Assembly (NCBI GenBank): GCA_947177205.1
Contig: CAMWTO010000008.1
Coordinates: 1-33,384 of the forward strand
Length of the DNA stretch: 33,384 nt
Source: an uncultured Ruminococcus sp.
GTDB taxonomy: Bacteria; Bacillota; Clostridia; Oscillospirales; Ruminococcaceae
Direction of reading: 5' to 3'
Shown here: positions 18,761 to 23,671 of the stretch, piece after piece
Position numbering within the stretch: position 1 is the first letter of the stretch
Layout of the letters: each line of letters opens with the position of its first letter
Position numbers and translations under genes: made by a program
The notes under the pieces: model-generated
Databases searched by the model: none
Seen by the model: the letters and a program-made list of their open reading frames with translations, nothing else
What the model was told of the DNA's origin: nothing

Positions 18761-19339
18761 TTACAGACCATATTCCTTAACTTTCCTGTAGAACCTGTTT
18801 GGCTTCATGCCGAGTTTCTGCATGGTTCTTTTCGCCGTCTGCTTTCCCTCACGCCACAGTTTACACTCCATCTGTAAAGCTGTCAGATCAACTGGAATTG
18901 GTTGCCGTCCTTTGTACTTACCGGCTGCCTTTGCAATGGCAATACCTTCACGCTGACGCTCTCGAAGTGTTTCACGTTCCAACTCTGCCAATCCTGCGAA
19001 CACAGTTAGGATAAATCTGCCCTGTGGTGTAGTAGTATCAAGTTGCTCTCTCAGACTAATGATTTCCACGCCTTTCCCTTGAAGTTCATCCACAAGCCGG
19101 AGCATGTCGGCACTACTCCTGGCAAGCCTGGCATACTCACTGACTACCAGGACATCCCCATCACGAACATAGTCCAACATTTTCTTTAGCTCCGGACGGT
19201 CAGTGTTCTTGCCACTACACTTATCAATGAAGATCTTATGCATTGGTTTGCCAAAATTTTCTAATGCTTTCAGTTGTCTGGCTTCATTCTGGTCGACACT
19301 GGATACCCGAACATAGCCTATGTATGTTTTTTCTTTCAT
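18761..19339 (-). CDS. Small serine recombinase (resolvase/invertase family)
   Basis: I choose ATG at 19339 after GGTGAG; the upstream ATG at 19366 lies right against the -10 box. The 192-residue protein has the catalytic serine motif GYVRVSS (S13), VSEYARLARSSADM and LAGLAELER-type helix E, then a short helix-turn-helix C-terminus ending NRFYRKVKEYGL. The length fits Tn3/Hin-type resolvases, not large serine integrases. Such enzymes resolve multimers or invert DNA. Position beside an iteron-like origin suggests dimer resolution of an episomal form; no invertible segment is obvious. Confidence 0.93.
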   Translation of the reverse strand: MKEKTYIGYVRVSSVDQNEARQLKALENFGKPMHKIFIDKCSGKNTDRPELKKMLDYVRDGDVLVVSEYARLARSSADMLRLVDELQGKGVEIISLREQLDTTTPQGRFILTVFAGLAELERETLRERQREGIAIAKAAGKYKGRQPIPVDLTALQMECKLWREGKQTAKRTMQKLGMKPNRFYRKVKEYGL

Positions 19340-19372
19340 GGACTCACCAACCCTCAGTTTTTTCATAATATA

Positions 19373-22043: not shown

Positions 22044-22559
22044 TTATGCTGTTTCTCTGCGTTTAGCCTCTTCATCACATTTGCGACGCTCCAATTCTTC
22101 GCCGACCGTGCCACAATATTCCATTGGGCTTTCATTTGTAGTTTGCTGGATTTGCAATTCAGATGCGTGCGGATTTGATTCATTTTGTTTAACTGTTTCT
22201 TCGATGGTTCTAACAAATTTTTCACGTTCCGTAGGGCTGATAGCAATATAGGCTTGAACAATTGCTTTTTCTAATTCCGTAAGATTAAACTCTTGTGCCA
22301 GTCGTGTTAATATATCTGGCTCTTCCATCTTTTTTATTCCCAGAAGACAATCTATCGAGACATTATAAAAATTTGCAAGAATAATTAATGCGTCTATTGT
22401 TGGGTCAGCTTCACCATGTTCGTATTTTAAGTAGGCTTGTTGTGAAATTCCTAAGATGTCAGCAATAGTAGATTGCTTTACATTTCTTTTTTTTCTTAAC
22501 TCAAGGAGAATGTCTCCCCGTTTTTGCATTGCTTCTTTGTCTTTCTTTACCTTTGGCAT
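22044..22559 (-). CDS. CI-like repressor (Xre-family helix-turn-helix)
   Basis: The 171-residue protein has a clear HTH_3 domain at about 15-70 (LLELRKKRNVKQSTIADILGISQQAYLKYEHGEADPTIDAL), then a helical and charged C-terminal part with no LexA-type peptidase motifs. AGGAGGTGAG precedes the start. It is transcribed divergently from the early operon, with AAAAGTTGT half-sites over both promoters, so it should be the lysogeny repressor. The primase gene lies 160 bp downstream on the same strand with no terminator seen between them in that direction. Confidence 0.88.
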   Translation of the reverse strand: MPKVKKDKEAMQKRGDILLELRKKRNVKQSTIADILGISQQAYLKYEHGEADPTIDALIILANFYNVSIDCLLGIKKMEEPDILTRLAQEFNLTELEKAIVQAYIAISPTEREKFVRTIEETVKQNESNPHASELQIQQTTNESPMEYCGTVGEELERRKCDEEAKRRETA

Positions 22560-22588: not shown

Positions 22589-22617
22589 ATTATATCACTA
22601 AAAGTTAATTATGTCAA
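22589..22617 (-). promoter_or_regulatory. Repressor (maintenance operon) promoter
   Basis: On the minus strand TTGACA (22617..22612), 17-nt spacer and TATAAT (22594..22589), a full consensus promoter. The spacer contains a TTAACTTTTAGTGATA half-site, so the repressor probably controls itself. Confidence 0.85.
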
Positions 22618-22746
22618 TATAAAGTTGTATAAAATTTATTTTTATCCTTAAAAGTTGTCAGTTTTTCACAAATAACAACTTTATTTTTAGTTAAATCTCT
22701 AAAAGTTGTTTTATGCTATTGACATATACAACTTTTTGTGATAGTA
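22593..22746. promoter_or_regulatory. Operator region with repeated AAAAGTTGT half-sites
   Basis: Half-sites resembling TATCnCTAAAAGTTGT occur near 22594, 22620, 22645 and 22696 on the plus strand, and as ACAACTTT(TT) near 22675 and 22729 on the other orientation. Two of them fall in the spacers of the divergent promoters, one in each. This is a multi-site lysis/lysogeny switch. Confidence 0.68.
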
Positions 22747-22747
22747 T
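22719..22747 (+). promoter_or_regulatory. Early (lytic) rightward promoter
   Basis: TTGACA (22719..22724), 17-nt spacer and TAGTAT (22742..22747). The spacer carries ACAACTTTTTGTGATA, the same half-site as in the repressor promoter. It should drive the rightward early operon. Confidence 0.8.
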
Positions 22748-22802: not shown

Positions 22803-22994
22803 ATGACTTCTGATGAGAAAATTCTGAAAATTGCCGATATTACAGCCGGAACTAACATTGATGCTAAACAACTGGCTACCTTATTGGCAATAATGGGGAA
22901 ACTTAGTCCTTGCGACGTTGCAAAAGTTGTATGGATGGCTATCGGGACGGCGAATACGTTGGGATGTGTAAACGGAGAAAACGGACAGGAATAA
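22803..22994 (+). CDS. Small protein in Cro position, unknown
   Basis: A 63-residue protein (MTSDEKILKIADITAGTNID) starts after AAAGGGGGGATG, the first gene of the early operon and divergent from the repressor. It is helical with a hydrophobic stretch VAKVVWMAIGTAN. I see no clear helix-turn-helix signature, so a Cro role is inferred from position only. Confidence 0.68.
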   Translation: MTSDEKILKIADITAGTNIDAKQLATLLAIMGKLSPCDVAKVVWMAIGTANTLGCVNGENGQE

Positions 22995-23033: not shown

Positions 23034-23035
23034 AA

Positions 23036-23059
23036 CAGCTCCGGATCATTCCGGAGCTG
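23036..23059 (+). other. Strong 10-bp hairpin upstream of the CRISPR-like repeat
   Basis: CAGCTCCGGA pairs perfectly with TCCGGAGCTG around a TCAT loop. No T run follows, so it looks more like a structural or processing hairpin than a terminator. Confidence 0.7.
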
Positions 23060-23075
23060 CAAAAAGCAAATCTGC

Positions 23076-23107
23076 GTTCCGCCCCTTGTGGGCGTGTGAG
23101 TTGAAAT
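23076..23107 (+). CRISPR. Solitary type I-C-like CRISPR repeat unit
   Basis: The 32-nt unit begins GTTCCGCCCCTTGTGGGCG and ends GTGTGAGTTGAAAT. It has the length, the 3' TTGAAAT handle and the stem register (bases 5-9 with 15-19, CGCCC/GGGCG, 5-nt loop) of type I-C repeats. I see no second copy in the window and no cas genes, so it is not an array. The antisense frame reads ISTHTPTRGGT, a peptide pattern familiar from mis-called ORFs over I-C arrays. Solitary phage repeats can act as RNA anti-CRISPRs; that role is inferred. Confidence 0.68.
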
Positions 23108-23239
23108 GACCATGCTACGTTCAGTTATAAATTGAATGGAATAAGACCATTCACATTGGAACAAGGTCTGACAATTTGGAAAACATTTTTTTATGATATT
23201 CCGATTGATGAGTTATTTTTTCACGAGGTGAAACCATGA
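23108..23239 (+). pseudogene. Truncated duplicate of the downstream Xre-like gene
   Basis: Starting right after the repeat, the frame reads DHATFSYKLNG, then LEQGLTIWKTFFYDIPIDELF and stops at 23239. It is homologous to the C-terminal half of the gene at 23453 (TFSNKLSASIGFSLEQGL). A 23-bp stretch CAAGGTCTGACAATTTGGAA.. is identical in both. The N-terminal helix-turn-helix half is missing and there is no start codon with a binding site. Its stop overlaps the next ATG. Confidence 0.75.
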
Positions 23240-23415
23240 ATGAATCTGAAAAAAGAAAAATAGAAATGCGACTTGAAAAATTGGAGAGCAGCAAGTCAAA
23301 GCTGGACAGGCATGAGTTTGTTATGGATGTTTGCATAGTTGTGCTTACAACTCTGGCAAGCTGTGTGTTGATCACCGAAGCAATTGTTGCTATAGCCGGA
23401 ATTGTATTCAACTAA
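23236..23415 (+). CDS. Small coiled-coil membrane protein, unknown
   Basis: This gene of 59 codons is too short for the track. ATG at 23236 follows CACGAGGTGA. The N-terminal half is charged and helical (NESEKRKIEMRLEKLESSK) and the C-terminal half is one hydrophobic helix (CIVVLTTLASCVLITEAIVAIAG). It overlaps the upstream pseudogene stop by ATGA. A membrane role such as exclusion is possible but not shown. Confidence 0.65.
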   Translation: MNESEKRKIEMRLEKLESSKSKLDRHEFVMDVCIVVLTTLASCVLITEAIVAIAGIVFN

Positions 23416-23452: not shown

Positions 23453-23671
23453 ATGTCTGTAAGACAAAAAATCGTATATCCGACACTGGAGGCGGAAATC
23501 GCACGACGTGGTATTAAAAAATATGAAATTGCCAAATTTTTGGGTATCAGTCCAAGAACTTTTTCAAATAAGCTGAGTGCTTCAATTGGTTTCTCGTTGG
23601 AGCAAGGTCTGACAATTTGGAAAACGTTTTTTAGCGACGTTCCCATTGATGAATTGTTCAGAAAGGAGTGA
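23453..23671 (+). CDS. Small helix-turn-helix regulator
   Basis: The 72-residue protein contains a HTH of the Xre/DUF739 kind (TLEAEIARRGIKKYEIAKFLGISPRTFSNKLS) and a conserved tail FSLEQGLTIWKTFFSDVPIDELF. AGGGAGGGATTAAA precedes ATG. A truncated copy lies upstream at 23108. It probably regulates early genes or works with the repressor. Confidence 0.82.
   Translation: MSVRQKIVYPTLEAEIARRGIKKYEIAKFLGISPRTFSNKLSASIGFSLEQGLTIWKTFFSDVPIDELFRKE

Follow-up and report, generated by a model that had tools for sequence, protein, structure and literature searches.

The early region of a temperate phage from an uncultured Ruminococcus sp. carries a solitary type I-C CRISPR repeat-like unit (SRU) that is probably a phage-borne mimic of the host I-C repeat, serving as a Racr-like RNA decoy for Cas5c. 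The unit mimics the host repeat in sequence and structure, stands alone in an early sense position, recurs in other mobile elements and is accompanied by the cognate I-C system, whose Cas5c lineage matches. On these sequence grounds, a new Racr-type candidate within a known class is supported, with inhibition by the SRU and binding to Cas proteins as its candidate role. The original prediction had read the unit in this way, and as a candidate that reading is supported by the cognate host system and by the recurrence of solitary sense units in early regions. Its premise, that solitary repeats of phages act as anti-CRISPRs, is established by experiment, including RacrIC1 for type I-C, and this tested precedent favors a decoy (PMC10651486).

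The window, a stretch of 33,384 nt, is contig C8 of a 2.23-Mb assembly that is 88.5% complete (G000, here its own genome). It represents a temperate tailed phage, with terminase, portal, major head, tape measure and tail genes together with lysogeny genes for an integrase, a Rha-type anti-repressor and a CI-type repressor. As to signs of integration, the two contig ends do not overlap and no host flank was identified. A DNA invertase gene of the Resolvase family is located beyond the tail and lysis region (18761-19366), and an invertible segment near it is possible. The early region is organized as follows.

22044-22559, minus strand: divergent CI-type HTH repressor (HTH_3, 3.3e-14; phrog_8 transcriptional regulator, 4.2e-18)
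22719-22747, plus strand: predicted early promoter TTGACA-17-TAGTAT with extended -10, from a consensus scan, divergent from the repressor gene
22803-22994, plus strand: first early ORF, 63 aa, without a known family
23035-23060, minus strand: strong hairpin, read as a leftward intrinsic terminator, with a T-rich tail on the minus strand
23076-23107, plus strand: solitary type I-C CRISPR repeat-like unit, 32 nt, candidate RNA anti-CRISPR
23108-23239, plus strand: 3' half of a second Cro-like gene, beginning exactly at the end of the SRU (DHATFSYKLNGIRPFTLEQGLTIWKTFF...)
23453-23671, plus strand: intact Cro-like HTH gene, in a region 97% identical to contig C74 of genome G030 (G030:C74)

The predicted promoter would drive an early plus-strand transcript containing the SRU and supports the place in the early transcript that was originally claimed for it. 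Between the two divergent promoters (22589-22747), several AAAGTTGT/ACAACTTT words look like repressor operators. As expected of a Racr, the SRU is intergenic, lying between the ORFs at 22803-22994 and 23236-23415; the sole frame overlapping it is an unsupported 157-aa frame on the minus strand. The truncated gene remnant directly 3' of the unit shares 68% identity with the intact Cro-like gene across 38 aa. General family models, rather than a dedicated acr/aca set, recognized no known family in the neighboring small ORFs, which counts against a decoy.

The SRU, GTTCCGCCCCTTGTGGGCGTGTGAGTTGAAAT on the plus strand, is identical at 26 of 32 positions to the array repeat of its own assembly, GTCACGCCTCTCGCAGGCGTGTGAGTTGAAAT, with differences at positions 3, 4, 9, 12, 14 and 15 and none in the 3' 17 nt. 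The second-best site in the window for the host repeat reaches 19/32, and 200 first-order Markov sequences, each of window length, peak at 23 matches. Such a match to the repeat of an intact I-C system, above all controls, favors the decoy reading. No second repeat stands out in the flanks of about 150 nt, where the best sites reach 13-16/32 (control mean 14.4, 95th percentile 16). The unit is solitary within a mobile element, without a partial repeat within 100 bp, in agreement with the definition of a Racr, and it is not a mini-array, which would have at least two repeats around a spacer.

These results confirm the solitary 32-nt I-C-like unit of the original prediction at 23076-23107 on the plus strand and bear out the absence of a second repeat, the flanks remaining within the control range. 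The stated lack of cas genes also holds for the proteins of the window that were scanned, and a full I-C operon is encoded in the host assembly. Comparison with host I-C repeats, named as the test that could refute the prediction, was run and gave a complete I-C system in the host, with the core stem and the 3' 17 nt shared. The identity of 81%, both to the own-host repeat and to that of genome G025, counts against a decoy in being below the 90% cut-off of SRUFinder (bit score 41.1; database of 17,823 repeats), which is a search threshold and not a functional requirement. Since the unit falls below this published cut-off, divergent decoys may be undercounted.

The host system is encoded on contig C11, with the gene order cas3-cas5c-cas8c-cas7-cas4-cas1-cas2. 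Each gene scores above its curated family-model cut-off, the models for Cas5c, Cas8c, Cas7 and Cas1c being those of subtype I-C, and the array behind the operon contains 11 copies of the repeat. A host CRISPR-Cas system of the same subtype, a further property of Racrs, is present, the window contig belonging to this genome by assembly only. Spacers 3 and 5 of the array (L008, 9103-9138 and 9237-9272) are identical, which suggests a repeat-spacer duplication. None of the 10 host spacers matches the window (at least 11 mismatches), and none was found to target related elements. With no host spacer against the phage, self-targeting that would make an anti-CRISPR necessary is absent, a further point against the decoy reading.

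Comparison of Cas5c proteins links the phage handle to one lineage of the enzyme. Cas5c of G030 is 93% identical to that of G000, Cas5c of G025 is 69% identical and those of six other I-C genomes are 24-37% identical. Among the arrays read, the handle GTGAGTTGAAAT occurs only in G000 and G025; G030, in whose assembly no array of its own was found, has GTGAGTTGAAAT in mobile elements. The five other I-C genomes of the genus with arrays read (Cas5c 24-37% identical) use GTGGATTGAAAT or GTGAATTGAAAC. By these comparisons the variant GTGAGTTGAAAT tracks one divergent Cas5c lineage, common to G000 and G030, in favor of a decoy.

In the I-C layout, a repeat comprises an 11-nt 5' handle and a 21-nt 3' part (PMC5965380). 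Judged by this layout, the SRU retains the whole handle and the scissile strand.

23080-23094, plus strand: core stem-loop of the SRU, CGCCC (23080-23084) pairing with GGGCG (23090-23094) by folding
23097-23107, plus strand: would-be 11-nt crRNA 5' handle TGAGTTGAAAT, equal to positions 22-32 of the host repeat

The Cas5c cut site in SRU RNA is predicted between 23096 and 23097, after G21. In the I-C Cascade structure the 5' handle is clamped by Cas5c and Cas7.7, nucleating assembly (PMC7684278), which makes retention of the handle meaningful. Two of the six differences from the host repeat form a compensatory stem pair, two are in the loop and none is in the handle. The compensatory change is two-sided, the apical pair of the core being T9-A15 in the host and C9-G15 in the SRU (columns 9/16 of alignment A2). 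Both this pair and the invariant handle favor the decoy reading.

Related units are found in other mobile elements of the own genome and of G030, a relative from the same genus. Solitary relatives occur in G030:C74 (31/32) and in contig C20 of the own genome (29/33), and a mini-array occurs in G030:C235.

C20 (L003), 1501-1533: solitary I-C unit GTTCCGCCCTACGTGGGGCGTGTGAGTTGAAAT, with a perfect sigma-70-type promoter, TTGACA-17-TATAAT, about 60 nt upstream of it
G030:C235 (L055), about 1050-1143: mini-array in the corresponding early slot, its degenerate first repeat separated by about 34 nt from a full second one

All of these units are sense-oriented in early regions, and the recurrence of solitary ones in this setting favors a decoy. 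In G030:C74, the cassette of hairpin, linker and unit matches that of C8 in 76/87 columns (87%), and the Cro-like gene behind the unit is 97% identical to its C8 counterpart. The DNA before the cassette and between the unit and the Cro-like gene cannot be aligned; a cassette shared between unalignable adjacent flanks points in the same direction. In C20, a degraded integrative element, the unit is flanked by a D5-type primase gene on the opposite strand and, on its other side, by a 5'-truncated integrase gene.

Are these units simply scars? In both units of the own genome, the base directly 3' of the repeat falls inside a 5'-truncated gene (Cro-like in C8, integrase in C20). Since the repeat ends abut the truncated genes exactly, the units were probably acquired by recombination. 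A crossover between spacer and protospacer would yield joints of this kind, and the type I-C PAM is TTC. As an origin it is not supported: no intact parent gene was found, and the homologues have no I-C PAM at the junction. The scar-like junctions are also what would be expected if the SRU were a neutral relic, taken up from an array by illegitimate recombination and devoid of present function. A plain relic does exist in G010:C36 (L153, around 440-470), where a solitary I-C repeat with a GTGAGTTGAAAC end stands beside broken cas7 and cas4; it is plainly what remains of a collapsed CRISPR locus and a model of simple decay. However, no phage unit of the SRU family adjoins cas remains, and all are sense units of early regions. 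The phage units in three elements of two genomes share a GTTCC start that differs from the host repeats; they keep the core stem, with one compensatory pair, and their handle does not vary. A neutral relic is distinctly unlikely.

Alternatively, the SRU and the sequence downstream could form a crRNA-like guide, as a mini-array or a CreA-like RNA, that would enlist the host Cascade to attack rival elements or to silence a gene. Targeting of related viruses is known for viral mini-arrays (PMC11656645), and the mini-array of G030:C235 occupies the matching early slot of a related element, although its spacer had no match among the loci compared. Against a guide, no second repeat was found near the C8 unit, and a search of the rest of the own genome gave no good match to the downstream "spacer" (best E 1.6). 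This sequence is wholly different among the three solitary units; in C8 and in C20 it belongs to coding DNA of the element itself. Such a role is highly improbable.

The decoy reading has to accommodate the base of the stem. Folding predicts that the SRU keeps the five-pair core and does not form basal pairs 3-21 and 4-20, with a predicted pairing probability of about 0, compared with 0.95-0.97 in the isolated host repeat. The change responsible, T3C4, opens the two pairs beside the Cas5c cut site; it is common to all three solitary units (window, G030:C74 and C20) and absent from the unit of the mini-array. RacrIF1 became inactive when C6 and G20 at the base of its stem were mutated (PMC10651486), and the loss of the basal pairs in the SRU therefore speaks against a decoy. 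Given that RacrIF1 needs its stem base, T3C4 can be read in two directions, as possibly weakening the decoy or as possibly turning the SRU into a dead end. About 50 solitary canonical I-C repeats were observed on viral contigs in IMG/VR (L165-L226), mostly with intact stems. Both basal pairs are kept in 40 of 50 such units away from contig edges and in 30 of the 31 array units used for comparison; some of the ten exceptions resemble register artefacts. A general loss of basal pairs among solitary I-C units is therefore rejected. It is conceivable, though rather doubtful, that in this lineage of Ruminococcus elements a true handle and scissile strand joined to the opened stem give a poorly cleavable dead-end RNA, which would hold Cas5c, the nucleating subunit of I-C Cascade, and would escape the processing that a crRNA undergoes.

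Cutting could also serve the phage. The SRU, in sense orientation, follows the first early ORF and precedes the Cro-like gene in the lysis-lysogeny operon, where cleavage of early mRNA by host Cas5c at 23096/23097 would part the first ORF from the Cro and anti-repressor genes. The phage would thereby sense active CRISPR and shift its lysis-lysogeny output. However, the C20 unit directly follows a promoter and precedes a broken integrase gene, so that no regulated gene is conserved, and the weakening at the base of the stem gives no hint of selection for efficient cutting. A switch of this type is more remote than any of the other readings.

The hairpin upstream of the SRU (CAGCTCCGGATCATTCCGGAGCTG, 23036-23059) has 10 bp, a folding energy of -19.5 kcal/mol and a z of -8.1. 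A strong 10-bp hairpin had been correctly described here; its spacing, given as 17 nt, is corrected to a gap of 16 nt. The hairpin had also been implied to be part of the anti-CRISPR. Read on the minus strand, it leads into TCTTTTTT and is scored as an intrinsic terminator, and similar hairpins without an SRU occupy the early slot in G030:C136 and G029:C79, just before the start of the next gene. Because of the minus-strand T-run and these repeat-less relatives, a leftward terminator for the early region is the better explanation of the hairpin, and a part in the decoy is rejected as its main reading.

Wider searches added little to this set. Rfam returned nothing credible, only GlmZ on the opposite strand and far below the gathering score. 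No related early region was found in a phage collection, and handle patterns and early-protein queries found no relatives in IMG/VR. The 16-mer AAATCTGCGTTCCGCC gave 64 matches in IMG/VR, most commonly in unrelated sequence contexts, and one GTDB scan recovered the sister unit in G030:C74 only.

How would the decoy act? After infection or induction, the SRU would be transcribed in the early rightward operon, and the early mRNA would display one repeat stem-loop with an authentic 11-nt handle. Host Cas5c would bind the SRU and be occupied, or would cut after G21. The cut product would carry a correct handle, its "spacer" would be the early mRNA of the phage downstream of the cut, and no second repeat would set its 3' end. 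Cas5c, perhaps with Cas7 and Cas8c, would in this way be diverted onto non-targeting RNA and away from crRNAs. We infer transcription of the SRU, its binding or cutting by Cas5c and the inhibition of immunity.

The closest known system is RacrIC1 from a Bifidobacterium pseudocatenulatum prophage, an RNA anti-CRISPR tested against type I-C (PMC10651486). Like the SRU, it is a solitary I-C repeat unit, in sense orientation in a phage operon, directed against a system with Cas5c processing. Unlike the SRU, near which no known acr gene was recognized, RacrIC1 lies 11 nt behind the acrIC5 gene; host and Cas5c lineage differ as well, and the basal stem pairs are predicted to be open in the SRU. RacrIF1 is likewise a solitary mimic of a host repeat and competes with crRNA for Cas proteins (PMC10651486). 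Its I-F system has Cas6f, bound to the upstream stem-loop product, whereas type I-C has no Cas6 and uses Cas5c, and RacrIF1 requires a stem base of which the SRU lacks two pairs. Virus-borne mini-arrays (PMC11656645) share with the SRU a repeat borrowed from the host, and the mini-array of G030:C235 sits in the matching operon slot; the SRU differs in having neither a second repeat nor a conserved spacer.

As a candidate decoy, the SRU would bring the type I-C systems of gut Ruminococcus within the range of RNA anti-CRISPRs. The setting is unusually clear, with a single assembly holding the candidate together with the cognate cas operon and array, and with other elements carrying sister units, and the roughly 50 solitary I-C units in IMG/VR provide a ready pool of further Racr candidates. 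Does an I-C decoy need the stem base or the handle? The SRU allows this question to be asked.
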